Positions 2,946 through 43,990 of a DNA stretch of 50,969 bases are shown here, in pieces; positions within the stretch are counted from its first letter, which is position 1, and each line of letters starts with the position of its first letter. The position numbers were made by a program, and so were the translations under genes. Origin of the DNA: Dysgonomonas sp. HGC4 (GTDB taxonomy: Bacteria; Bacteroidota; Bacteroidia; Bacteroidales; Dysgonomonadaceae); assembly GCF_001261715.1 (NCBI RefSeq), contig NZ_CVRU01000195.1:1-50969 (forward strand), written 5' to 3'. The notes under the pieces are model-generated. The model had not been told where the DNA came from and searched no databases. It saw only the letters and a program-made list of their open reading frames with translations.

Positions 2946-4325
2946 ATGAAGTATACTTATATGACGAGGTTCTCTATCTGCGCAGTTGGAGTAATATTTT
3001 TATTACAAGCTTTGCTAGTTTATCGTCTGTTTCAGACGAATTTAGACTTGCTTCAACGTGAGTTGAATTTGACTACGCAATCAGTATACAATATGGATTT
3101 GAATGCACGCCTAGAATTAAAAGGGGGAACTAGTACGCCTGATGTTAAATATGCAGGAACGACACCTCCTCCAGGGGTTGATACTACAAAAATCACTCGT
3201 ATTGGAGGCGGTGCTCAAGAAAATAAAAAACATAGTAGAGATAAAGGATTGGTTTCTGCTATGAATTTAGCAATGGAGGAATTTGTAGGAAGAAAGTATC
3301 CTGTAAACTTGCATTCAATAGATAGTTTGGCTGGAACTTTGTTTAAAGAGAATAATATTAAATTGAAGTTCTATTCGGAAATTGTGGATGTAGATTCTAA
3401 TGAAGTATTAGAAACTTCTTTCTCTGGAGCTTCTAAGCCCTCAGATATTCTTTATTCTAAAGGTATCCCTCTGAATCTAAAACAAACGAAAGTACTTCGA
3501 TTAGTCCTTATTAGTCCAATGTGGGAGATTTATCCTCAGATGGCTTGGATGTTGGTTCTTTCATTATTGCTTTCTATATTCTGTATATACAGTTTACACA
3601 TACAAAAGAAAACTTTAGCGAAACAGAAACAATTGGCAAGCTTGAAAAATGACTTTTTCTCAGAAGTATCCCATGAGTTTAAACGTCCTTTGGCCGTTTT
3701 GCGTCAGACAATGAATTCTCTAGGAAATGAGAAGATAATTTTGAATGAGGAAAAAAGAACTCGCATGTTGAGGATTGGAGAAGAAGAGATTCTAAATATG
3801 ACAAGTCGAACAGAAATGTTCTTAAGTCTTGCTCAGGATGATGAAGGCCTTTTCGAATTGCATCCTACCGAATTTGATATTGTGAAAGTTGTTTTCGATT
3901 TAGCGGATAAGGCTGTTGATACAACGCCTGGGTCACCTGAAATAGATGTCGATAATGAATTGAAGGATTCTATGATTTTCGCAGATAAAGATCATATGGA
4001 ACATTTGGTTTCGAACTTAATAAGTAATGCAATAAAATATTCGAAAGACTCAATCGATATACATATTAGATTATACAATGAAAATAATAATGTCTGTATT
4101 TCGGTAAAAGATACAGGAGTGGGTATTTCAGAAGAGAACTTAAATGTTGTTTTCGAAAAATATTCGCGTGTTGGAAAAACGACTCATGCTAAAGGTCATG
4201 GAATTGGCTTAAATTACGTAAAACGTATTACTGAAAAGCATGGAGGAAGTGTCTCTGTTAAGAGCGAACTAGGTGTTGGTAGTGAGTTTATTGTAAAATT
4301 GCCCTTAGTAAAGAACGTAAAATAA
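2946..4325 (+). CDS. Sensor histidine kinase (inner membrane, two-component system)
   Basis: A 459-aa HK with a transmembrane helix near residues 8-28, a periplasmic domain of about 165 residues with a Gly/Pro-rich stretch (TPPPGVDTT, IGGG), a second membrane helix near 196-216, a HisKA domain with FFSEVSHEFKRPL (phospho-acceptor His about 243), and a HATPase_c domain with N box NLISNAIKYS, G1 DTGVGIS and G2 GHGIGLNYV. All catalytic motifs are present, so it should be active. The signal sensed is unknown. In related genomes I would expect the response regulator directly downstream; here the next host gene on this strand is the regulator at 37583, beyond the prophage, so the two are probably a separated cognate pair. 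Confidence 0.93.
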   Translation: MKYTYMTRFSICAVGVIFLLQALLVYRLFQTNLDLLQRELNLTTQSVYNMDLNARLELKGGTSTPDVKYAGTTPPPGVDTTKITRIGGGAQENKKHSRDKGLVSAMNLAMEEFVGRKYPVNLHSIDSLAGTLFKENNIKLKFYSEIVDVDSNEVLETSFSGASKPSDILYSKGIPLNLKQTKVLRLVLISPMWEIYPQMAWMLVLSLLLSIFCIYSLHIQKKTLAKQKQLASLKNDFFSEVSHEFKRPLAVLRQTMNSLGNEKIILNEEKRTRMLRIGEEEILNMTSRTEMFLSLAQDDEGLFELHPTEFDIVKVVFDLADKAVDTTPGSPEIDVDNELKDSMIFADKDHMEHLVSNLISNAIKYSKDSIDIHIRLYNENNNVCISVKDTGVGISEENLNVVFEKYSRVGKTTHAKGHGIGLNYVKRITEKHGGSVSVKSELGVGSEFIVKLPLVKNVK

Positions 4326-6152: not shown

Positions 6153-6722
6153 TTATCTTAAAGCCCTTCTGAATCGGGCTATTGTATGTAATTCTATTCT
6201 TCTGATCAATGTATAACTTTCACCTAAAAACTGGCGTTGTGGTATCTTTAAATTCATTTTACGTTTGTGTGCTCTTACTGTAAACGATTTTACAGTCTGC
6301 GTTTTTACCTTCTCTGTACGTCCAGCTCTGGTGCGTGTATGTGCTTTTCTTCGGTGCGATTTTACTGTATGTGATCTTACATTGACGGTTTTATTTATTT
6401 CACCGCCTGCATTGTGTATTTCTGCATACTCAACATCTGTACCTATTATTACTTCATCAATTGTTGCTTTGATCTTTCGAATACTTCTTTTTAAGCGTCC
6501 TTTGTCAACAAGTAATGTCTGGCTTCTCCTTTTTGATCGACCTCGCACTTTTTTGCGAGGCTTCCAAGGGTGTTTTGTTCTATCCAGCCACGCTTGTTCT
6601 CTAAAACGATCTTTACTGAAGTTTACAGCTATTGTTGCTATTTCAGGGGGTAATCGTTGGTAAGTTTGCAATACAGCATCTAATCTGCTTGTAAAGCTTG
6701 TCATATCTACATTATATGCCAT
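6153..6722 (-). CDS. Phage virion morphogenesis protein, Mu gpG-like, with basic repeat insertion
   Basis: The 189-aa protein has the N-terminal helix and WLDRTKHPWKPRKK segment, LLVDKGRLKRSIR, VIIGTDVEYAEIHNAGG and the C-terminal IPQRQFLGES motif of the gpG/virion morphogenesis family (a head-completion/tail-assembly factor). Between IHNAGG and IPQRQFLG, where family members usually have a short loop, lies an insertion of about 55 residues made of imperfect HTVKSHRRKAHTR and QTVKSFTVRAHKRK units, rich in His, Lys, Arg and Thr. The protein is extremely basic overall. The function of the insertion is unknown; nucleic-acid contact is an inference. Confidence 0.8.
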   Translation of the reverse strand: MAYNVDMTSFTSRLDAVLQTYQRLPPEIATIAVNFSKDRFREQAWLDRTKHPWKPRKKVRGRSKRRSQTLLVDKGRLKRSIRKIKATIDEVIIGTDVEYAEIHNAGGEINKTVNVRSHTVKSHRRKAHTRTRAGRTEKVKTQTVKSFTVRAHKRKMNLKIPQRQFLGESYTLIRRIELHTIARFRRALR

Positions 6723-11699: not shown

Positions 11700-13250
11700 T
11701 TAAAAGCGGTTTTTACCCGTTGTTCGGGGTGTAGTTCTTATTTCAAATTTCTCTATAAAAGTGGCTTTGTTAAGCTCTGATATTGCAGACTGTAACGCAT
11801 CAGGTGCATCATCATTTGCACCACTTCCTTTCTCGAAAGCAAGCAACTGATCAATCATATTTACAATGTCCTGTTTGTTCTTTAAAAGCTCATTGAAGAA
11901 TACATTGAGACGCTCAAAGAAACCTGCCATTGATTCAATACGATCAAACTTGTTATGCTTTTGCCCTTTATCAGCTGTCACTGGTATGTAGTAACCACGG
12001 CTGTCACCTTCCATATCAAAGTCGTTCACAAACTCATCTTGTGCAAATAACCCCTCTATCAAGTATCTGACATTGTATTTTTGAAGCTGTAACTTTTCGT
12101 ACAGGTCATACAACCATGTTGCAGCTACAGCACGAGAAGTTTGACGAACAAAAGCGTCTATGATATGAAATTCACGACCTTTTTTACCAACCAAAACGAG
12201 TGCTTTATAATCACCTTTGTCTTTGTAAGACAAGTCACCATACAGGCACAAACTATCATACATGTGCAATGGCAGAATCTTTTTATACTGCATCCATTCA
12301 GGGTTGAATATTGTACCATCTACAAGAGGTATGCACATATATTCACGCATCCACGCTCTGTAAGGTGTTGCTGCACGTTTCTCTCTCCAGTACTGAGCCG
12401 TATATTTTGCAGACCACGAAGGTGTAAAATCAGCATCCAGTACTGCAGGCGTTTTGATATGATAAAATGTTCTTGGTAATCCTTGTTCTTTGGCTGCTTT
12501 ATTGGCTATTTCAGATTGCTCTATCAGTTTGGCTTGTAAAGAGTTTTTATGTATAAGGTTGTTGTTAAAAACAAACCGTTCATTTCCTTTATCAAAACAC
12601 CCCCATAGCGAACTGGTTATATAGTCCATTCCTTCACGTATCAAGCGATCATTGTTACACATTTTCAGTGTGTCAATATCATCACAGGCGATATAGTCGG
12701 GGCGGTGTTCACCATTACGCAAACCTCTGGGGTCTTGTCCGAAACCGATTGCCTGAAACTTTACACCGTCCTTTGTCGTGAAATTGCCATCAGCCCAACT
12801 GCCATGCTTAAATTGATCACCATAATCATTTTTTAATCTGTCATTGTGTGTAAGTTCTGCCTGAACATCTGCAAGCAATTCTGTTGCTTTCTCATCATTG
12901 CGACCAACTAACAACATGAACCACATTTCCTTTTTAACCAGTGCCAGAAATAACGGTACACCTAAGACCGTTATCACCGATTTTGCACTACCTCTAAAAG
13001 CATCATTCAGCAGTTTTATAATGAATTTAAAGATTAGCAGATCAGCAATTTTTTTGTGAAAAGGAGCTGATTCACAAGTAGCATAGTGAGGAAAATAGTA
13101 AGCCCACCATTTAAGAAAATCAGCCTCAAGTGATTTTATACGCTTGTATTTTTGATCAGGTGTTTCATTTATATTTATAGTTGCAGCTTTTTGAATCAGT
13201 ACACAATGATCATCATATTCACGCTGAATCTTGTCATAGTTAATTGCCAT
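11700..13250 (-). CDS. Terminase large subunit (Mu gp28-like)
   Basis: ATP-driven DNA packaging motor and nuclease. The 516-aa protein has a Walker A variant AFRGSAKSVI at residues 84-93, Walker B PDYIACDDIDT near 190, and the RNase H-like nuclease half with LYGDLSYKDKGDYKALV (first acidic residue) and C-terminal NDDAPDALQSAI (last acidic residues). The ATG overlaps the small-terminase gene by 11 nt. Mu-like phages package by headful and cut host DNA outside the phage ends, fitting the absence of cos or pac signals here. Confidence 0.93.
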   Translation of the reverse strand: MAINYDKIQREYDDHCVLIQKAATININETPDQKYKRIKSLEADFLKWWAYYFPHYATCESAPFHKKIADLLIFKFIIKLLNDAFRGSAKSVITVLGVPLFLALVKKEMWFMLLVGRNDEKATELLADVQAELTHNDRLKNDYGDQFKHGSWADGNFTTKDGVKFQAIGFGQDPRGLRNGEHRPDYIACDDIDTLKMCNNDRLIREGMDYITSSLWGCFDKGNERFVFNNNLIHKNSLQAKLIEQSEIANKAAKEQGLPRTFYHIKTPAVLDADFTPSWSAKYTAQYWREKRAATPYRAWMREYMCIPLVDGTIFNPEWMQYKKILPLHMYDSLCLYGDLSYKDKGDYKALVLVGKKGREFHIIDAFVRQTSRAVAATWLYDLYEKLQLQKYNVRYLIEGLFAQDEFVNDFDMEGDSRGYYIPVTADKGQKHNKFDRIESMAGFFERLNVFFNELLKNKQDIVNMIDQLLAFEKGSGANDDAPDALQSAISELNKATFIEKFEIRTTPRTTGKNRF

Positions 13251-28417: not shown

Positions 28418-29269
28418 ATGAAAAAGAATTACACTACAGCTCCGTTACCGTTTCAAGGACAAAAGAGACGTTTCATTAATGCCTTTGGTTTAGCAATGAC
28501 TGAGCTGAAAGCCAAACAAGAAGTAAAAATAATAGTCGATTTATTCGGGGGGTCAGGCTTGCTTTCGCATACTGCAAAGAAAATATTTCCTGAAGCAAAA
28601 GTTATATATAATGACTTTGATAATTATAGTTTACGCCTTAAGAATATTGCGAAAACAAACAAACTGCTTGCTGATCTGAGGCTTGTTTTAGGCGTTCACC
28701 CAAGAGAAAAGAAGATTCCAGCAGAAGTATGTAAAACAATGTTAGATCGTATTGAAATTGAAGATAATGCAGGGTTTGTAGATTACATTACACTATCCTC
28801 TTCGCTTCTTTTTTCATCTAAATATGTAACTGATCTGAAAGAGTTAAAATCAGAAACTCTATATAACAATATCAAAGCCTCTGATTATGATGTTAATTCA
28901 ACTGAATATCTTGCAGGTTTAGATATTGTGAAGTGTGACTACAGGCAGTTATACAACCAATATAAAGATGTTTCGCATGTGCTGTTTCTGGTTGACCCAC
29001 CTTACTTAAGTACAGATACAAAAACATATCAATCGGATAAATACTGGAAGCTCAGAGACTATTTAGATGTACTAAATGTTTTATGTGGTTCGAACTACTT
29101 CTTTTTTACATCAAATAAGAGTTCATTAATTGAGTTGTGTGAGTGGTTTGCTGATAACAGGGATATAGGTAATCCTTTCAAAAATTCAGTGCTGAACACG
29201 CAAAATATAACGCTTAATAAGTCTGCAGGATATACAGATATGATGCTCTATAAGTTTGTAAAGGTATAA
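28418..29269 (+). CDS. DNA adenine-N6 methyltransferase (Dam/D12 class)
   Basis: A 283-aa orphan methyltransferase with APLPFQGQKRRF (SAM-binding motif X region), IVDLFGGSGLLSHTAKK (motif I, usual FxGxG), YNDFDN (motif II) and the catalytic LFLVDPPYLSTDT (motif IV DPPY). It methylates adenine in a short target; the specificity is unknown. No restriction partner is present, so protection of phage DNA from host restriction or gene control is likely. It is an isolated rightward gene between the late and early regions with terminators on both sides. Confidence 0.9.
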   Translation: MKKNYTTAPLPFQGQKRRFINAFGLAMTELKAKQEVKIIVDLFGGSGLLSHTAKKIFPEAKVIYNDFDNYSLRLKNIAKTNKLLADLRLVLGVHPREKKIPAEVCKTMLDRIEIEDNAGFVDYITLSSSLLFSSKYVTDLKELKSETLYNNIKASDYDVNSTEYLAGLDIVKCDYRQLYNQYKDVSHVLFLVDPPYLSTDTKTYQSDKYWKLRDYLDVLNVLCGSNYFFFTSNKSSLIELCEWFADNRDIGNPFKNSVLNTQNITLNKSAGYTDMMLYKFVKV

Positions 29270-29815: not shown

Positions 29816-29998
29816 TTAGATTATTCTTGCTTGCCTCCCAAAACCATACTCATCACACAGGCGTTTTATTGCTGTAATCTCAATGCTTTCGGGGTATTGA
29901 TGATTGTAAAAAATCGTACATGTACGTGTGTCTATATTTATCCCTTTCTGCTTTCTGACCCTGTATATAAGGCAATACATGATGTTTTTATTTTTCAT
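29816..29998 (-). CDS. Hypothetical early phage protein (60 aa)
   Basis: A 60-aa basic protein (MKNKNIMYCLIYRVRKQKG...) with TRTCTIFYNHQYPESIEI in the centre. No family recognised. It is 12 nt upstream of the DnaA-like gene and is preceded by the first tRNA-like element (30032-30074). Its size, spacing and clean start support it as a real gene. Confidence 0.6.
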   Translation of the reverse strand: MKNKNIMYCLIYRVRKQKGINIDTRTCTIFYNHQYPESIEITAIKRLCDEYGFGRQARII

Positions 29999-30031: not shown

Positions 30032-30074
30032 TGTTCCTATGCTGGGAATCGAACCCAGCTTGAACCGTTTAGGA
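30032..30074 (-). ncRNA. tRNA-like minihelix 1 (acceptor + T-arm) between early genes
   Basis: On the minus strand, directly after the TAA of the 30075 gene: TCCTA can pair with TAGGA (acceptor-like, 5 bp), linker CGGTTCAAG, T-arm CTGGG-TTCGATT-CCCAG (perfect 5-bp stem, canonical 7-nt T-loop), then CATAGGA and ACA. No anticodon or D stem is present, though the linker has GG as in a D-loop. Elements 2 and 3 are built the same way. Confidence 0.6.
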
Positions 30075-30257
30075 TTATAGGTTATTGATTCCTTCTGAAA
30101 TTATGTTAGTTAACATAGCTACAGCAGTTGCATTTTCGTTGACTTCTTCAGTAATAATATCTCGTGCTATCCATTGCCCATCAGATTTTGTTGCATGGAC
30201 TACAGCAGATAAACCTTGATGATCTGATATTGTAATAACTATTCTCTGGTTATCCAT
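30075..30257 (-). CDS. Hypothetical early phage protein (60 aa)
   Basis: A 60-aa protein beginning MDNQRIVITISDHQGLSAVVHA, beta-rich then helical (NATAVAMLTNIISEGINN). No family recognised. It lies 6 nt after the 117-aa gene, and its stop directly abuts tRNA-like element 1. Confidence 0.6.
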   Translation of the reverse strand: MDNQRIVITISDHQGLSAVVHATKSDGQWIARDIITEEVNENATAVAMLTNIISEGINNL

Positions 30258-30263
30258 AATTGT

Positions 30264-30617
30264 TTATATTTTAAATGTTTTATTCTTTCTTAAAAAGGCG
30301 TGTTCCATTGGCGAACAATCAACTTTAGACCTCTCGAATTGTCTCAAAACTCTGTCTATATCCATTATTGTGCGATCATTCATTTGAATAAACTTTATGT
30401 AATCGGTTTTTTGCCCTTGTAAGGATATAACCGCCCATGATGGTGAATAATGATGTAAGTCTACACTAATATCAAGATTAGAAAGTAAGTTACTTACTCG
30501 GTCAGCTTGTTCCTTTAAGGCTTTGCGTTCTTTTTCGCATTGTCTTATTTCAGATGCAATTTTGCCTAATTCATAACTGAAAACCCATTGAAAAAACTTC
30601 TTTAAATACTTTCTCAT
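30264..30617 (-). CDS. Hypothetical early phage protein with coiled coil (117 aa)
   Basis: A 117-aa basic protein starting MRKYLKKFFQWVFSYELGK, with a probable coiled coil at 20-50 (ASEIRQCEKERKALKEQADRV) followed by a small beta region. The amphipathic aromatic N-terminus might touch membrane. Function unknown. Located in the tightly packed early operon. Confidence 0.65.
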   Translation of the reverse strand: MRKYLKKFFQWVFSYELGKIASEIRQCEKERKALKEQADRVSNLLSNLDISVDLHHYSPSWAVISLQGQKTDYIKFIQMNDRTIMDIDRVLRQFERSKVDCSPMEHAFLRKNKTFKI

Positions 30618-30628
30618 AATTGTTTTTT

Positions 30629-30907
30629 TTATAATCCGTTGTTACATAAGTAAATTATTTCATCAGCAAAGTCTATAAAAGTTTCTTCACACTCATAATT
30701 GATTGTTGGGTTGAAACTATATTCAGGTTTAGGGTCAATCACCTGAAACCCGTAATTTTCTAGCTGCTTTAGTCTCTGAGCCTCTTTAACTGGAAGATCA
30801 TATTTATCAATCTTAATAGTCTTTTTGATAGAGTTTATATCATATCCACGAGAACGAAAGAAACGTACTAAAGCATATTGATACTGTTTAAATCTGTCTG
30901 CAGCCAT
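30629..30907 (-). CDS. Hypothetical early phage protein (92 aa)
   Basis: A 92-aa protein: helical N-terminus MAADRFKQYQYALVRFFRSRGYDINSIKK and acidic C-terminus (NYECEETFIDFADEIIYLC). No family recognised. It starts 4 nt after the stop of the 59-aa gene and is separated by 11 nt from the next. Confidence 0.65.
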   Translation of the reverse strand: MAADRFKQYQYALVRFFRSRGYDINSIKKTIKIDKYDLPVKEAQRLKQLENYGFQVIDPKPEYSFNPTINYECEETFIDFADEIIYLCNNGL

Positions 30908-30911
30908 AGTT

Positions 30912-31091
30912 TTAGATATTATTTAGAGTGATAAATCTTTGAAATTCTTCTTCTAGTTCCTCACAATCGTATACAGGTTCTGTGCTTTCTCCTATGCGTA
31001 TATACCAGCCATCATAGCCATATCGTTCATAAACATTATCATCTGTATCAACTCTTAGAAAAGATACATTAGTGACTTTTTCTATTTTCAT
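30912..31091 (-). CDS. Hypothetical early phage protein (59 aa)
   Basis: A 59-codon frame (MKIEKVTNVSFLRVDTDDN...) whose ATG lies inside the 3' end of the DUF3164 gene (23-nt overlap) and whose stop is 4 nt before the next start, filling what would otherwise be a 160-bp gap. It is acidic, with GYDGWYIRIGEST and a Glu-rich helix. No family recognised. Confidence 0.6.
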   Translation of the reverse strand: MKIEKVTNVSFLRVDTDDNVYERYGYDGWYIRIGESTEPVYDCEELEEEFQRFITLNNI

Positions 31092-31752
31092 AGTTAGGAC
31101 ATGTTTTTTCTATTGCACTCATTGATAGTGGTAAGCTTTGTTCTTCACCGTTTTCGTCCTTATAACGAACCTCTATAAACATACAAGAGGGTGACGGTCT
31201 GTAAGCCTCTTTAATAAGTGTGATACCGTCCATAAAATCAGCATTGTTTGATTTGATAGCCATTTGTTCAAGCTCCAACACTTTAGACGCTTTTAGATTT
31301 CCTTTTTTATCGGGTTTTAGCAGGCGTATAACACCCTCTACAAGCGTTGCACTGTTATCATCCTTTGCCAATGTTCTCAAGTAGTCCTGTACTTTGCAAA
31401 CCCCTATTTCAACTTCATCAGCCCAGCCTTCATTGACACGATTACCCAGCTTGATAGAAATTGAACCATCTTGAGTGGTGAAGGTGTTGGATGATCTGTC
31501 TGATTTGGTCTTGAAAAGATCATCTTTCATCTGAATAAGACCGTCACAGTTGTTAAACACAGTCTTTTTAGCCTCAAGCATTAAGCCAGATATCCTTTTG
31601 AGTAATTCAAATTGAACTCTGATAGTCTCATCTTTGATTTCTTTGTAGGTTATCTTATCTTCTTTGATCTTAAGAGCCTTTTCTTTTTCGGCTTTCTGAG
31701 CTTTAAACTCTTTAAATTCTGCTAGTTCAGCAGGTGATAATACATTTTCCAT
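31069..31752 (-). CDS. DUF3164 family protein (early region of Mu-like phages)
   Basis: From the ATG at 31752 (an upstream ATG at 31776 would overlap the preceding gene) the protein has about 227 aa. It begins MENVLSPAELAEFKEFKAQK and contains TTQDGSISIKLGNRVNEGWADEVEIGVCKVQDYL, characteristic of DUF3164, which is found in the early operons of Mu-like phages such as B3 and D3112. Function unknown; presumably linked to replicative transposition. Confidence 0.88.
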   Translation of the reverse strand: MENVLSPAELAEFKEFKAQKAEKEKALKIKEDKITYKEIKDETIRVQFELLKRISGLMLEAKKTVFNNCDGLIQMKDDLFKTKSDRSSNTFTTQDGSISIKLGNRVNEGWADEVEIGVCKVQDYLRTLAKDDNSATLVEGVIRLLKPDKKGNLKASKVLELEQMAIKSNNADFMDGITLIKEAYRPSPSCMFIEVRYKDENGEEQSLPLSMSAIEKTCPNYENRKSH

Positions 31753-31756
31753 ACGA

Positions 31757-31993
31757 TTAAATATTATTAAATTCATCTTCTATTTCTTGTAGTTCCGATG
31801 CAGGGTTACGCTCATTCAACATGTTGTTAAATTGTACATAACTGCATAACACAATAGGTTTTATATGTAAGTCAAATACTCTTTTTCGAATACTTGTTTC
31901 ATTCTCATGCTTTGCCAAAAGTTCTTGTACCAGTACGCATTTACGTAAATAAGCACGCCTGCGACCTAACTGCATTTTTCTCATCTTACTCAT
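31757..31993 (-). CDS. Hypothetical early phage protein (78 aa)
   Basis: A 78-aa protein with a very basic N-terminus (MSKMRKMQLGRRRAYLRKC) and an acidic C-terminus (ELQEIEDEFNN). No named family. It starts just downstream of tRNA-like element 2 and ends 5 nt before the DUF3164 start. Confidence 0.65.
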   Translation of the reverse strand: MSKMRKMQLGRRRAYLRKCVLVQELLAKHENETSIRKRVFDLHIKPIVLCSYVQFNNMLNERNPASELQEIEDEFNNI

Positions 31994-32012
31994 AATCTAT
32001 TGTGTATTTTTT

Positions 32013-32064
32013 TGTGAGTGTGACAGGAATCGAACCTGTAAACGTTACCGTCAAACACACACCC
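32013..32064 (-). ncRNA. tRNA-like minihelix 2 (acceptor + T-arm) between early genes
   Basis: Minus strand, 8 nt after the TAA of the 32072 gene: GGGTGTG pairs with CACACTC over the canonical 7 bp (one G-U), an 18-nt linker contains GACGGTAACG, the T-arm is ACAGG-TTCGATT-CCTGT with a perfect 5-bp stem and 7-nt T-loop, and ACA follows the acceptor strand. Stem lengths 7 + 5 equal those of a real tRNA. No anticodon arm. Confidence 0.65.
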
Positions 32065-32071
32065 TGTCACC

Positions 32072-32542
32072 TTAATTTGCTTGTGCTAACCTTATCAATT
32101 TTTCACGCTCAAGCTTATCTTTTGCTAGTATTGCTTCGAGTTTTGGTATAAGTAAGTCCATTTCATCAGTTGACATTTCACCCAGCGTTTTACCTGCTAT
32201 TTTCGGGTTTCTCATAAACTTGTTTACAGCCTGCCAATCAGTAGTATTAATGCCAGCCTTTTGCAATCTTAAAAGAATAGCTGATCTACGTTTTTTAAGC
32301 TCTCTATCGGCTATGTAGGCTTTCTTTTCAACCCTTTCTACCTGCAGTGTCATTTCTGATACAGTCTGCTCCATTCCTTTAATCATTTGTGCATAACCCC
32401 TAGGGTTTTTCTCTAAAAATTCAGGTAATGAGGTTGTAAGCATATTACTGTATTGCCATACCAGTGCATCCTTTTCAGCACCTTTCATTTGATTAAGCAA
32501 GCCGTAAAAACGACCGTGTATATTTTGTGATTTTGTTGACAT
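32072..32542 (-). CDS. Conserved early protein of Bacteroidetes Mu-like elements (156 aa)
   Basis: A 156-aa, largely helical protein: STKSQNIHGRFYGLLNQMKG, MLTTSLPEFLEKNPRGYAQMI, AGINTTDWQAVNKFMRNPKIAGK and EMDLLIPKLEAILAKD. I recognise this as a conserved protein of Bacteroidetes transposable phages and elements, comparable in position to Mu gp16/GemA, but a function is not established. It follows MuB by 1 nt. Confidence 0.75.
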   Translation of the reverse strand: MSTKSQNIHGRFYGLLNQMKGAEKDALVWQYSNMLTTSLPEFLEKNPRGYAQMIKGMEQTVSEMTLQVERVEKKAYIADRELKKRRSAILLRLQKAGINTTDWQAVNKFMRNPKIAGKTLGEMSTDEMDLLIPKLEAILAKDKLEREKLIRLAQAN

Positions 32543-32543
32543 A

Positions 32544-33464
32544 TTAATTATGATTTAAGCGTTCACGTTGAATAACTCTTTTTAAGCGTCTTTTGTCTTT
32601 AATTACAAGAATCTTACTACCATCTGAAAGGATACGTTCAATAGGCTCACAGGCTTTAAAAACCTCCTTTTGCAGTGTATCATCGGTGATACCGTTAACA
32701 GCACATATTTTGCGAGTATCAGCAAGTGTTGCACCAACGGTTTTAATGTATTTGCGACCAAAACGGCTGTCTACTTCATCAAACCCCGTTTTATTAAGTC
32801 TTACACCTTTTTTGATCTGATGTTCAAGATTTTCAGTACCCAGTGCTACAAGCCCTGTCATACCTTCAAGCTCATTAAATAAATGTATGATCATACATGT
32901 AGCTGCAGGTTTCAAAGAATTTGCCTGATCAATGATTAAAAGAGGCTTTTTGTCTGCCATTCCTTTAATAGTATCAGTTATAGTTTCAATAAACTCAGTA
33001 GAATATCCGTAACCTTTAGGTATTGTTGCACCAACTTCTACAGCTATTTTTTCAAGAAATTTACGTGCACCCCATTCTTTACAGTTTATTTTAAATACAG
33101 CCTCCTTTTTATGCCAGTTAAGGTATATATCCGAGGGTGCAGTTTTACCGCAGCCAGCGTTATCTGAAACCCCAATGAACATACTTTCATTCTTAGCATC
33201 GCTCAGCACCTCGGTAATGATTCTAAAGTCTGTAGTTTCAGTTGCAATGTTCCACCCACTATTGTCAAAACTATAATCAAGTGCCAAAGCAATTTTTAAA
33301 TACACATCATCACCTTCAGCCAAATAAGTACCACCACGAAGCTGTGAAATAGCTGCTTCTGAAATACTGCACTTTTTTGCTACTGCACGGTAAGAACCAA
33401 GTCTTGTTTTTTCATCTTCAATTAGTTGAAGAATTTCTTTTTTTTGTACATTTGTCATATTCAT
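32544..33464 (-). CDS. MuB-like AAA ATPase (transposition target selection)
   Basis: A 306-aa protein with an N-terminal helix-turn-helix (GSYRAVAKKCSISEAAISQLRGG), Walker A GVSDNAGCGKTA (residues ~98-109), Walker B KPLLIIDQANSLK and a C-terminal helical domain. MuB binds DNA with ATP, gives target immunity and stimulates the transposase. It follows the transposase gene, the standard Mu order. Confidence 0.92.
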   Translation of the reverse strand: MNMTNVQKKEILQLIEDEKTRLGSYRAVAKKCSISEAAISQLRGGTYLAEGDDVYLKIALALDYSFDNSGWNIATETTDFRIITEVLSDAKNESMFIGVSDNAGCGKTAPSDIYLNWHKKEAVFKINCKEWGARKFLEKIAVEVGATIPKGYGYSTEFIETITDTIKGMADKKPLLIIDQANSLKPAATCMIIHLFNELEGMTGLVALGTENLEHQIKKGVRLNKTGFDEVDSRFGRKYIKTVGATLADTRKICAVNGITDDTLQKEVFKACEPIERILSDGSKILVIKDKRRLKRVIQRERLNHN

Positions 33465-33466
33465 TG

Positions 33467-33509
33467 AGTTTTAAAGGCTCTTTAAAGTCGGTTCAAAAGT
33501 GGCTTTATT
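33467..33509 (-). repeat. Phased TTTAAA repeats upstream of MuB start
   Basis: Reading the minus strand: AATAAAGCCA, CTTTTGAACCGA, CTTTAAAGAGC, CTTTAAAACTC precede the ATG at 33464, with a period of about 11-13 bp. This resembles the arrays upstream of 13933, 20284 and 28418. Also includes a TGGCTTTATT box shared with 13814-13823. Confidence 0.42.
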
Positions 33510-33526
33510 GAGCTTTTTTGTTTATA

Positions 33527-35509
33527 TTAATATTGATTTCTGGCTGTTATTACTACATCTTCATTATCCCATTCATTTAGGAGAAAAGCAGATTCTGCAG
33601 CTTCGTATGCTGGCTTTTTCATAATACCGCCTTGCATAATGGCAACTTCACCGTAATTATCTTGTTGATCAGGCAATTCAATAGCTTTTATTGCAGCTAT
33701 CTTAGTTTTTCTGTCAGCTTCTACTTTGTTAGCAATAGATTTAATCTTACCCACTGCACGCAAATCTTTATTCGGTCCGAAACGTTGTGCAGGTTTTATT
33801 TCTGAGAATGTGCCTAGATAAGTATCACCGTCAAACAGATGCACCTTACTTAAATCTTCATAATCGAAGCAATTAGTAAGCTTCACGCCAGTGTATTTTT
33901 CAATCAGATCACAATCATCAATACCATAGTAAAAAGTTGCACCTTCGATCTGTGTAGTAATCATATAGTTTGATATTTGCACACCTTTATTAAGTCCAAA
34001 CATGAAGCACCACGCATAATCAGGAATACGATATACATTTGGTTTCTCGCATTCTTCATGCAATTGAAGCGGTGACTGATCTATGTTTTTGAATTTATTT
34101 GAATACTCAGAAAATGGAGTATTTATATAGCTTGTTAAAATCTTGTTAGTTTCGTTACAAGCTTTGTCATAATTAAAGTCGTTTTTGCTAGCCCATTGTC
34201 GCATGCTTGCAACATATTCTTTGCTTCTGTGTGCGTATCTGCGAGTAGATTTAATACCCTCACCATAATACAGTTCGCTATCCATCATAAACACGTCTTG
34301 TAACGTACCCCACCAACGCTCTATATTTGCTTTTCCTTCAGCTTTGTGGGTAACAGTCATTACAGTACCAGCCATTCTGAACTGTGTTTCAATAAATTTC
34401 CATTCAGAAGTGTTGTGTCCAGGAAAGCGGTCATAAATAAACTCATAAGGCAAATAGCCAGCATTACGCACAGCGTTTGCCAAAGCGTTTGTTACAGCCG
34501 TTGCACTCTCATCATAGCAATATTCCCAACCCATCACCATACCGCTCATAACATCACGTACAGCAATGATGTACAAGAACTTTTGTCCTGTAACCTTTTT
34601 GCCTTCTTTGTTGTAATAAGTTGCTTTATGATCTATGATATTAACACGAGTACCATCAATTTGCCAGCAGTCACCAGCAAATAAAGCTGATTGAGTAGGT
34701 GTATAGACTCTATATTTATGATTGTGACGGTTGTTTGCACCGTATCTTTGCTGTGTAATGTATTGCGTTTCAGGTAGTGCTAAAAAGTCACTAACCCAAC
34801 GTTTAGAAGGAAAATCACTAATTTGCGACTGTAAACACATTCTGCGTGTTTGTCTGAAAATATATGCTGCAGAATAATTCTTTTGAGACTCAATAAGACC
34901 GAATAACCAACCTTTAATAATGTCGTTATTAGCGAACTTAGCACGGTTTGCATTGCCTTTATTCTTTTCGAAAATAAGGTCAGTTATAGCTTTACCTTCA
35001 GCATATTCTTTGATCTTGTCACGCAGGTTTCGCCATGTTTTAGGCAGGTGTTTAATTTCTTGCAGTTCAACTTCTTTTGCCAACTTTTCAAAGAAGGCTG
35101 ATTTTGAAAAAGAAATACCATTTAATGATATATAGATGCTTGCATCATTGATTATAGCTGCAGCAATAGTTAACTCATCAGAACTGAATTTAGATTGAAA
35201 TTTCTTATATGAACTGATTTTTGCAGCTTGGATGATTGATGTAATATCATCGTTTGTTTCCCTTGCACTATCTATTAGTGCTGCAAGTGGTAAAAGTTTA
35301 GTTTGTATAGCAATAGGTAAGTAATTGTAAGCGAAATAATCTTTGTTCAAAATCTTCTCATATTTCCATGATACAGATTTGGAAGTATTAAATCTACTTT
35401 TAGCTACTCGCAAATAGTTATAACCAACATCAGCATGCTTTAATATATAATCTTGGGATAAATATATCTCTGAATTATAATTTATTATGTCGCCTGAGTT
35501 TACTTGCAT
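33527..35509 (-). CDS. MuA-like DDE transposase
   Basis: A 660-aa integrase/transposase catalysing replicative transposition of the phage. The catalytic core has CWQIDGTRVN (Asp ~285), FIYDRFPGHN (Asp ~360) and EGKANIERWWG (Glu ~397). A DNA-binding N-terminal part (YLRVAKSRFNTSKSVSWKYEKI) precedes it and a Mu-transposase C-terminal beta domain (around YRIPDYAWCFMFG) follows. Length and order match MuA (663 aa). Its recognition sites are probably the bipartite repeats at 4581-4609 and 37384-37492. The start lies 14 nt after tRNA-like element 3. Confidence 0.95.
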   Translation of the reverse strand: MQVNSGDIINYNSEIYLSQDYILKHADVGYNYLRVAKSRFNTSKSVSWKYEKILNKDYFAYNYLPIAIQTKLLPLAALIDSARETNDDITSIIQAAKISSYKKFQSKFSSDELTIAAAIINDASIYISLNGISFSKSAFFEKLAKEVELQEIKHLPKTWRNLRDKIKEYAEGKAITDLIFEKNKGNANRAKFANNDIIKGWLFGLIESQKNYSAAYIFRQTRRMCLQSQISDFPSKRWVSDFLALPETQYITQQRYGANNRHNHKYRVYTPTQSALFAGDCWQIDGTRVNIIDHKATYYNKEGKKVTGQKFLYIIAVRDVMSGMVMGWEYCYDESATAVTNALANAVRNAGYLPYEFIYDRFPGHNTSEWKFIETQFRMAGTVMTVTHKAEGKANIERWWGTLQDVFMMDSELYYGEGIKSTRRYAHRSKEYVASMRQWASKNDFNYDKACNETNKILTSYINTPFSEYSNKFKNIDQSPLQLHEECEKPNVYRIPDYAWCFMFGLNKGVQISNYMITTQIEGATFYYGIDDCDLIEKYTGVKLTNCFDYEDLSKVHLFDGDTYLGTFSEIKPAQRFGPNKDLRAVGKIKSIANKVEADRKTKIAAIKAIELPDQQDNYGEVAIMQGGIMKKPAYEAAESAFLLNEWDNEDVVITARNQY

Positions 35510-35522
35510 TTTTTTTGTATAA

Positions 35523-35567
35523 TGTTCCCTTGCAAGGAGTCGAACCTTGCAATAAACCGTTAAGGGA
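35523..35567 (-). ncRNA. tRNA-like minihelix 3 (acceptor + T-arm) upstream of transposase
   Basis: Minus strand, overlapping the stop of the 35560 gene: TCCCTT pairs with AAGGGA (6 bp), linker ACGGTTTATTG, T-arm CAAGG-TTCGACT-CCTTG with perfect stem and a canonical 7-nt T-loop, then CAAGGGA and ACA. The linker shares ACGGTT with element 1. The 3' end is 13 nt before the transposase ATG. Confidence 0.62.
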
Positions 35568-43338: not shown

Positions 43339-43372
43339 CAACTCTATTTCCCGAGAGTTTCTTGCTCGTGTT

Positions 43373-43608
43373 TTTTGGCAGGTCTTCTGACTTACTTCAT
43401 TTCTAAACATCCTTCCCATCTTTTTAGTCAGCATTTATCAGGTCTCAGTTATCAACAAGTTTGTTGTTTACTGTTTTTGCTTACTATTCGGACAGTGGCT
43501 AGAGTATTGTTTAGAAACTCTTAATGAAGCTTACAGCAGCGGGTCTGTTCCAGATTTACACCGGATTCCCTTTTCATTACTCTATCTGCGATTGTGATAG
43601 AATAACAC
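43373..43608 (-). ncRNA. Cobalamin (B12) riboswitch
   Basis: The minus strand carries AAAAGGGAATCCGGTGTAAA, GACCCGCTGCTGTAAGC, GCCACTG and, at the 3' end, AGTCAGAAGACCTGCC (B12 box, 43392-43377), the conserved segments of the cobalamin riboswitch in order. When bound to cobalamin it would reduce expression of the CWC operon. The hairpin AACTCT/AGAGTT just before the ATG at 43338 could be part of the expression platform. Confidence 0.93.
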
Positions 43609-43990
43609 CAAAATCAGTGTAAAGATAATAAAATGTATGATTGATGCTACACTCAGAAACAAAAAAATCTTCCCTTAATGAAGGAAAGATTTTTTGTTCC
43701 AAGAATGTGCCTATAGGAGAAGGAGAGTCCTATATTAAATTGAGATATTATGGATTGTGTTTTCCTGGCACTTTTTTTAGACTTACTGTTAGTAATTGAT
43801 ATTCGTTATATGTATGTGTATGAAAAACCTCGTTCTTAAGTGCAAAGAACGGCATAAAGACTTGATAGGGGTATAACCAAAATCTCTTTTTTTTCTTAGA
43901 ATTGATCCTTTTTTTCCTATTCTCTGTCAATAGAGAACGCCCATACCTACAATCGTAGATATGGGCGTTTGTCTGTTATGAGATTTATTC
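43609..43990. other. Intergenic region with two hairpins, no convincing gene
   Basis: Hairpin AAAAAATCTT-CCCTT-AATG-AAGG-AAAGATTTTTT at 43661-43695 with T-runs on both strands, and hairpin 43936-43969. A 60-codon frame (43748-43930, -) is Lys-rich and overlaps the second region; I do not accept it as a gene. Confidence 0.5.
43936..43969 (-). terminator. Terminator after outer-membrane barrel gene
   Basis: AACGCCCATA pairs with TATGGGCGTT and CTAC with GTAG inside, around AATC. It lies 22 nt after the stop of the barrel gene. Confidence 0.75.

Follow-up and report, generated by a model that had tools for sequence, protein, structure and literature searches.

A 50,969-nt stretch of DNA from Dysgonomonas sp. 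HGC4 (contig NZ_CVRU01000195.1, positions 1 to 50,969), referred to here as “the window”, carries three short tRNA-like elements, E1, E2 and E3, within a run of minus-strand genes. We regard this part of the window as the early region of a Mu-like phage because genes for a MuA-type transposase, a MuB-type ATPase and a DUF3164 protein surround the elements. Here, we describe the secondary structure of the elements, its conservation, and their placement at gene junctions. We then discuss their function, which is probably to punctuate transcripts as tRNAs do, with host RNase P and/or RNase Z making the cuts. All three elements lie where a first-pass annotation of the window had placed them, as follows (acceptor 5' strand / linker / T-arm / acceptor 3' strand / flank):

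35523..35567, minus strand: E3, TCCCTT / AACGGTTTATT / GCAAGG-TTCGACT-CCTTGC / AAGGGA / ACA; acceptor 6 bp, T-arm 6 bp, putative miniature D-loop A[ACGGT]T
32013..32064, minus strand: E2, GGGTGTG / 18-nt linker / ACAGG-TTCGATT-CCTGT / CACACTC / ACA; 7 + 5 bp including one G-U pair
30032..30074, minus strand: E1, TCCTA / AACGGTTCAA / GCTGGG-TTCGATT-CCCAGC / A / TAGGA / ACA; acceptor 5 bp, T-arm 6 bp, one unpaired A, putative miniature D-loop A[ACGGT]T

E2 is a tRNA that lacks only the anticodon arm; its D-arm can be read directly as GTT-TGACGGT-AAC at 32056-32044. The 7 + 5-bp stems that the first-pass annotation reported for this element are borne out, with the one G-U pair, while its linker range of 9–18 nt has to be corrected to 10–12 nt in E1 and E3, depending on where the stems are taken to end, and 18 nt in E2. 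The same annotation placed every element directly at a stop codon. This holds for E3, whose acceptor overlaps the upstream TAA (35560-35562), and for E1, which begins 0 nt past a stop, but E2 begins 7 nt past one. The next listed start codon is 16 nt (E3), 22 nt (E2) or 36 nt (E1) beyond the acceptor. An alternative 8-bp hairpin (GTGACAGG/CCTGTCAC, window 32062-32069 with 32020-32027, minus strand) could compete with the E2 fold; by eye, it is absent from the E2 homologue in Dysgonomonas sp. ZJ279 and may be due to chance.

Several searches show how distinctive the elements are within their own genome. A descriptor consisting of a 5-bp T-stem, a TTCRANY loop and an acceptor of ≥5 bp found five T-arms in the window, all five with some acceptor, and ACGGT occurs in E1–E3 only. 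In 100 first-order Markov copies of the window, the mean number of T-arm-plus-acceptor matches was 0.61, with 0 containing ACGGT. An exact core pattern run across the whole 4.49-Mb assembly matched E1, E2 and E3 and nothing else. A looser pattern, with three mismatches allowed, was uninformative for the window (22 matches vs 15.2 expected, with 6 of 100 shuffles equally high). ARAGORN called 0 tRNAs and 0 tmRNAs in the window, and Rfam at gathering score found no family at any element. The sole Rfam match there was a cobalamin riboswitch (43360-43627, minus strand, 83.8 bits), well away from the early operon. With the threshold relaxed, the Rfam tRNA model (RF00005) matched E2 alone of the three, scoring 26.2 bits against a cut-off of 29. 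With our covariance model R1, trained on 15 elements, the scores are 52.4 bits for E3, which was in the training set, and 37.2 and 25.5 bits for E1 and E2, both outside it. A second model, R2, gives E3 56.3 bits (E3 is in its training set as well).

The three elements are members of a wider class. A sequence-only pattern (ACGGT, 4–20 nt, GGTTCGAYTCC) matched at least 120 stretches of viral contigs. Among the matches listed for this first viral pattern (loci L002-L121), 129 in number, 66 lay inside ARAGORN tRNA or tmRNA calls and were dropped; many of the 63 that were kept share the acceptor, short linker and T-arm build. R1 also retrieved additional copies from these contigs that had escaped the pattern, and two further sequence patterns supplied additional loci. 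Over 341 loci plus the window, the descriptor gave 414 matches, of which 330 are distinct and, once 35 scoring below 17 had been excluded, 295 score at least 17. The linker is 10–18 nt in E1–E3 and 10–12 nt in 248 of these 295, i.e., there is no anticodon arm. The elements combine a T-arm bearing a TTCRANY-type loop with the GG of a D-loop, as expected of tRNAs. A scan made without the GG requirement yielded 383 distinct candidates outside ARAGORN tRNA calls, of which 45 fit neither of the two loop classes, GGCA and AYGGT, and some of these may be chance matches. The commonest T-loops of the GGCA class are TTCGAGT and TTCGAGC. The acceptor and T-stem form a stack of 12 bp in 109 of 129 Bacteroidota-type elements. 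Rfam 15, run over nine element-rich loci (125,172 bases), found no family at gathering score.

Copies can be numerous. One 11.6-kb contig stretch has 12, all on one strand and with varied stems, and the whole 71-kb phage record has 14 matches. The other whole records searched were those of Streptomyces phage Izzy, with 10 matches, nine further phages, with 3–9, and a single bacterial genome, with 5; a few matches in these counts are partial or near threshold. The descriptor missed the tenth Izzy element, which was found by the models (R1, E 0.017; R2, E 4e-6). Annotated phages were scanned with a looser descriptor (threshold 11), and two of the eight elements of Gordonia phage VanLee score 16.8 and 13.5. 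Closely spaced tandem elements, ~150–200 bp apart, occur at L475 (1963-2155), where no relative of the window's early proteins was found, and at L170 (1083-1778). L474 has identical copies at 11894-11938 and 6569-6613, 5.3 kb apart, which suggests copying between junctions. L097, L066, L065 and L073 have many model matches to the T-arm only; these are perhaps tRNA arrays.

The first-pass annotation pointed out that the stems of E1–E3 differ in sequence while pairing is kept, and pairing proved to be conserved in related phages as well, the test on which that claim had been made to hang. In an alignment (A5) of the best 150 of 167 matches, with 134 distinct rows, 98.3% of pair cells are standard pairs, vs 53.1% when the 3' letters are shuffled, and 669 cells are changed on both sides, vs 208 in the shuffled set. 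Because selection by a model favours copies that pair, we added a control set chosen by sequence only. It has 76 distinct matches, of which 56 share one spacing; only these were counted, all in the same fixed geometry. Their 280 acceptor pairs comprise 266 Watson-Crick, 6 G-U, 3 A-C and 5 other; sliding the partner by 1–2 positions leaves 96–130 Watson-Crick pairs. Over both stems, the non-Watson-Crick cells are 17 G-U, 4 A-C and 6 other, and such an excess of G-U over A-C is what would be expected of a sense strand that folds as RNA.

The linker is best understood as a miniature D-arm because the pair closing its GG loop covaries. In the scan without the GG requirement, the first GG lies at linker index 3 in 280 of the 383 candidates and 12 lack a GG in the linker's first part, with many of the scanned loci having been fetched by patterns that contain GG. 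In the GGCA class, the pair closing the five-nucleotide GG loop is Watson-Crick in 117/117 elements (73 A-U, 33 C-G and 11 G-C; one fetching pattern fixed the A of the A-U rows and left its partner free), compared with a mean of 56 and a maximum of 72 after shuffling. Of the shifted controls, one gave 55, less than the mean of its own shuffles, and the other 19. In the AYGGT class, rows beginning with A were excluded, since another pattern had fixed that base; 32 of the remaining 46 rows pair, vs 17 on average and at most 26 after shuffling. Longer D-stems can be read directly in individual elements: a three-pair stem GTT ... AAC is possible in E2 and in its ZJ279 homologue (GTT-AGATGGT-AAC), and some VanLee elements have a four-pair stem, GCTC-TGGT-GAGC. 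Given this covariation, we view the elements as tRNAs reduced to their acceptor, D- and T-parts.

The genes around the elements in the window, all on the minus strand, are listed below. Those described as open reading frames (ORFs) come from the ORF list.

33527..35509, minus strand: MuA-type transposase gene, downstream of E3 (phrog_310, 5.6e-26; rve, 3.7e-06, 27.6 bits, under the Pfam cut-off of 32.6)
32544..33464, minus strand: MuB-type transposition ATPase gene (phrog_296, 9e-28; AAA_22, 3.3e-08)
32072..32542, minus strand: gene g156, directly upstream of E2 (phrog_14123)
31757..31993, minus strand: gene g78, directly downstream of E2 (ORF; 61.5% identity in ZJ279)
31069..31776, minus strand: DUF3164 gene (PF11363, 1.1e-12)
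30075..30257, minus strand: ORF of 60 amino acids (aa) whose stop codon abuts E1
29816..29998, minus strand: 60-aa ORF downstream of E1, with a 52.7% identical relative in L146 (Dysgonomonas sp. 520)

E3 thus sits directly before the MuA-type transposase gene. A phage of Dysgonomonas sp. ZJ279, with 65% identity in MuA and 63% in MuB, has elements at two matching junctions, i.e., before MuA, as with E3, and between g156 and g78, as with E2. A third ZJ279 element lies downstream of DUF3164, like E1, the genes flanking E1 having no relative there. The first and third ZJ279 elements are identical to one another; their stems are unlike those of E3 and E1, yet paired. L146 and the L386 phage also have an element shortly before a MuA relative, and L018 and L209 have none at that position. 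The first-pass suggestion that the elements mimic tRNAs is strongly supported by the conserved pairing, by the position of ACGGT inside the miniature D-arm, and by the occurrence of elements at corresponding junctions of related phages. A D12-class adenine DNA methyltransferase gene (28418-29269, plus strand) adjoins the early operon and faces it.

Placement at junctions extends beyond close relatives. Among distinct Bacteroidota-type elements, 75 of 129 begin 0–3 nt past the stop codon of a frame that is open for 40 codons, compared with 1.4% of random positions. Streptomyces phage Izzy has an element in 10 of its 12 gaps of ≥70 nt and in 0 of 12 shorter ones; in a 6-kb stretch of Gordonia phage VanLee, the figures are 8/8 and 0/12, the 70-nt threshold having been picked after the gaps were seen. 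In the stretches that we read of Mycobacterium phages LittleCherry and Rope and Microbacterium phage PhillyPhilly, one element each lies between annotated genes. In VanLee (L481), a similar ribosome-binding stretch (GGCACCCAAC..GAAAGGAG) recurs in the leader after several elements, as if each gene came with a standard cassette. Among the 220 phage records matched by an actinobacterial-type element (see below), none of the 60 listed has a feature annotated under the element; in a spread sample of phage records, a few have a hypothetical protein or a true tRNA there.

A Bacteroidota-type pattern run over 84,980 species genomes matched 31 stretches, all of them presumably Bacteroidota, judging from the organism names. 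A relative of MuA, MuB or DUF3164 is encoded in 59 of 83 Bacteroidota-type loci (stretches of 1–15 kb, the window included, several of which share a contig); a tblastn search of INPHARED phages with the window transposase gave no match. A search with one actinobacterial-type element against phage records gave 220 matches at E ≤10, 128 of them over ≥80% of its length and 109 in Streptomyces phages, with weak Escherichia and other matches that include ordinary tRNAs. The earlier focus on Mu-like phages is too narrow, as elements are also found in Streptomyces, Gordonia, Mycobacterium and Microbacterium phages. A model search of 61 genomes (the window's and its relatives) listed 14 at E 0.05, of which 6 have full elements by eye: the window's own, G017 (locus L133), G019, G023, G026 and G049. 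As for the other loci from this search, seven overlap tRNAs called by ARAGORN; L136 and L138 match only weakly. A thinner survey of the phylum found elements in at least 2 of 296 genomes, the window's included, a lower bound given its strict filters and the few candidates scored per genome. The elements thus occur here and there, in the manner of mobile elements, rather than as a general host feature.

The 3' ends of the elements resemble those of host tRNA genes. The host set consists of 33 distinct genes, from 30 of the 39 tRNA matches in the window's assembly; C74 is present in 33/33, C75 in 5/33 and an encoded CCA in 4/33. All nine model-found elements from the window's genome and five relatives read N73-C-A, towards which the last columns of the covariance model lean mildly. 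Copies found by the pattern that fixes ACA were left out of the 3'-end count for that reason. In the GGCA class, where the flank is unfixed, C74 occurs in 91 of 104 elements, plus 7 if the helix is over-called by one, and a purine at position 73 is followed by C74 in 89 of 104; ten tRNA calls in GGCA-type loci have C74 in 9 cases and C75 in 1. The window's assembly encodes the relevant enzymes, with a class-A RNase P RNA (RF00010, 255.4 bits) and an RNase Z (TIGR02651, 305.7 bits).

Among the functions proposed in the first-pass annotation, a processing site in the early mRNA fits best with the placement, the 11–13-bp stack, the D/T elbow and the host-tRNA-like 3' end. The model can be set out as follows. 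A minimal tRNA-like RNA, consisting of an acceptor stem, miniature D-arm and T-arm, would be embedded in a polycistronic early mRNA at a gene junction. It would adopt a tRNA elbow and an 11–13-bp acceptor/T stack with a tRNA-gene-like 3' end, N73-C74, and host maturation enzymes would mistake it for a tRNA precursor. Cuts would be made by RNase P on the acceptor's 5' side and/or by RNase Z 3' of base 73. The transcript would then fall into separate mRNAs whose ends are defined and which could differ in stability and dosage, and an RNA of 40–45 nt would be freed. Of a tRNA, just those parts are kept that come into contact with RNase P, RNase Z and the CCA enzyme. We infer cutting because these contact parts are retained, the 3' signature is host-like, the elements are placed at junctions, and there is precedent.

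Several known systems offer that precedent or bear comparison. In the tRNA punctuation model of organelles, tRNA-like structures in long transcripts serve as cutting sites for RNase P, and the phage elements, like t-elements and mascRNA/menRNA, are also tRNA-like structures inside long transcripts. Organelle punctuation and mascRNA/menRNA are eukaryotic or organellar, however, and are not repeated between the genes of a bacterial virus; mascRNA is also larger than the phage elements. The tRNA-like domain of tmRNA has an acceptor, a T-arm and a reduced D-arm, without an anticodon arm, but the phage elements are far shorter and lack a tag reading frame. True tRNA genes (RF00005) share the T-loop, elbow GG, acceptor and N73-C74 with the elements, which differ in lacking an anticodon arm and in falling under tRNA thresholds. 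PMC4919922 describes the release of mascRNA from MALAT1 by RNase P and RNase Z, and the excision of a t-element from a longer transcript. According to PMC11143913, E. coli RNase P RNA cleaves model hairpins made of an acceptor and T-arm, and does so at the canonical site. The RNase P model substrates of McClain and Altman (acceptor stem, T-stem and T-loop) have the same minimal architecture as the phage elements, but they are synthetic, whereas the elements are natural, lie inside gene runs and have a covarying miniature D-arm.

Several observations weigh against processing. E. coli RNase P needs -CCA beside such a T-stem hairpin, according to PMC5723415. The elements have CC in only 5 of 283 cases, the count to be set beside a full R73-C74-C75 signature; host tRNA genes are mostly without CCA too. 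The mixed GGT/other class is weaker in C74 (83 of 179, plus 27 if the helix is over-called by one; purine-73 with C74 in 74 of 179), and the stack in the GGCA class is 11 bp in 89 of 104 elements, one short of a tRNA. At position −1, the elements mostly have A (76% in the Bacteroidota type and 57% in the GGCA type), vs T in 15/33 and A in 11/33 host tRNAs. Folding is also equivocal. When eight elements were folded alone, with a program that does not model the contact between T-loop and D-loop, the minimum-energy structure had the acceptor and T-arm in 4 (E3, E2, Izzy and VanLee). It lacked them in E1, where the linker GUUC pairs with GAAC, and in the two mutually identical ZJ279 copies, while the ZJ279 homologue of E2 shows them only as the centroid. 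Relative to shuffles, z ranged from −3.22 to −0.88 over the eight; z is −3.22 for E1 and −3.04 for E3, and for E2 (−1.46) the gain in stability over shuffled copies is small.

Two alternatives keep the element in the mRNA as a working structure. It might remain uncleaved or stand at a 3' end, the elbow and stack shielding the mRNA from exonucleases, perhaps after CCA addition, as in the 3' tRNA-like structures of plant viruses. The many elements that start just past a stop codon (the 75 of 129 above) could indeed end the upstream mRNA, and C74 could begin CCA completion. We nevertheless think such a protective role unlikely: a plain hairpin would do, whereas the covarying miniature D-arm and T-loop suggest a tRNA-recognizing partner; the elements lie inside one-strand gene runs, so that an end must first be made; and downstream T-runs are mostly short. 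Less likely again is a translation element, the tRNA-like fold next to the stop codon touching the ribosome as it terminates and either favouring reinitiation at the following gene or insulating that gene. Coupling to the stop codon is tight in Bacteroidota, and the start of an open frame usually follows at 12–57 nt there, at 25–70 nt in Izzy and at 31–51 nt in VanLee. Stop spacing nonetheless differs by group (often 0–3 nt in Bacteroidota, 8–39 nt in Izzy), which hardly points to a single ribosome geometry, and VanLee junctions carry their own GAAAGGAG-type leader.

Two further alternatives were weighed. The many copies per phage (14 in the 71-kb record, 10 in Izzy) and the conserved tRNA surface would suit a decoy or sponge for tRNA-directed enzymes, such as host defence nucleases, modification enzymes or CCA enzymes. 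The first-pass annotation thought this conceivable in view of a possible tRNase-type toxin, which we did not identify among the window proteins scanned (part of the ORFs). A decoy fits poorly with placement in intergenic gaps, as it has no need to occupy nearly every long gap and no short one, nor to follow stop codons, and without an anticodon arm it would be of no use against anticodon nucleases; we consider it improbable. Very improbable, in our view, are remains of real tRNA genes, or an element acting at the DNA level or as a terminator. Decay could account for the match of E2 to the tRNA model and for a loose ARAGORN tRNA-Ser call over one element (L132), and the tRNA-like sequence before the late genes of Lactococcus P335 phages does resemble a decayed tRNA. 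Uniform geometry, covariation, matching placement and the excess of G-U over A-C mismatches argue against these readings. As to intrinsic terminators, in 284 of the 295 distinct elements the 12 nt downstream contain no run of more than three T; runs of ≥4 occur within 12 nt in the other 11 and within 15 nt in 29 of the 129 AT-rich Bacteroidota-type elements.

Some known phage sequences were considered as possible members of the class. In the open-access literature searched, with subscription papers mostly outside its coverage, we found no earlier description of such phage elements. PMC11143913 names phi80 M3 RNA and P1/P7 C4 RNA as phage substrates of RNase P. M3 was rejected as a member: its annotation is that of an oop homologue, and the descriptor gave no minihelix match in the phi80 genome. 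The early-region terminators of phiC31 reportedly lack poly-U; the scan shows only tRNA calls in this phage and R1 matches are weak (≤16.2 bits), so these were also rejected. Streptomyces phage R4 has no element in the 31 kb read. The Lactococcus P335 sequences (L122, L123, L124) are 7 + 5-bp, tRNA-like structures with a longer arm, before late genes; they were set aside as probably decayed tRNA because ARAGORN calls a tRNA-Ala there in TP901-1. They lie between the late activator gene and HNH/terS, and the PLgT-1 copy has ~7 + 5 bp with a small hairpin arm. In Escherichia phage N4 (L477), a 1.5-kb stretch without annotated genes has odd tRNA-like structures at 2869-2935 (8-bp acceptor, T-arm, 31-nt arm and encoded CCA) and 2952-3028, beside four ARAGORN tRNA calls.

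Processing of the mRNA by tRNA enzymes thus remains our preferred explanation. A little less surely, though we still lean towards it, the elements form an undescribed and widespread class of anticodon-less mini-tRNAs that fill operon gaps in Mu-like phages of Bacteroidota and tailed phages of Actinomycetota, where host tRNA-processing enzymes would cut the mRNA gene by gene, much like tRNA punctuation in mitochondria. If so, a general rule of phage gene expression has been overlooked by annotation. Selection would then keep only the tRNA parts that processing enzymes touch, and the elements would therefore amount to nature's own mutational catalogue of what RNase P and RNase Z recognize. It would also become testable how phages set unequal levels for the genes of one operon, and mRNA ends would be predictable from sequence.

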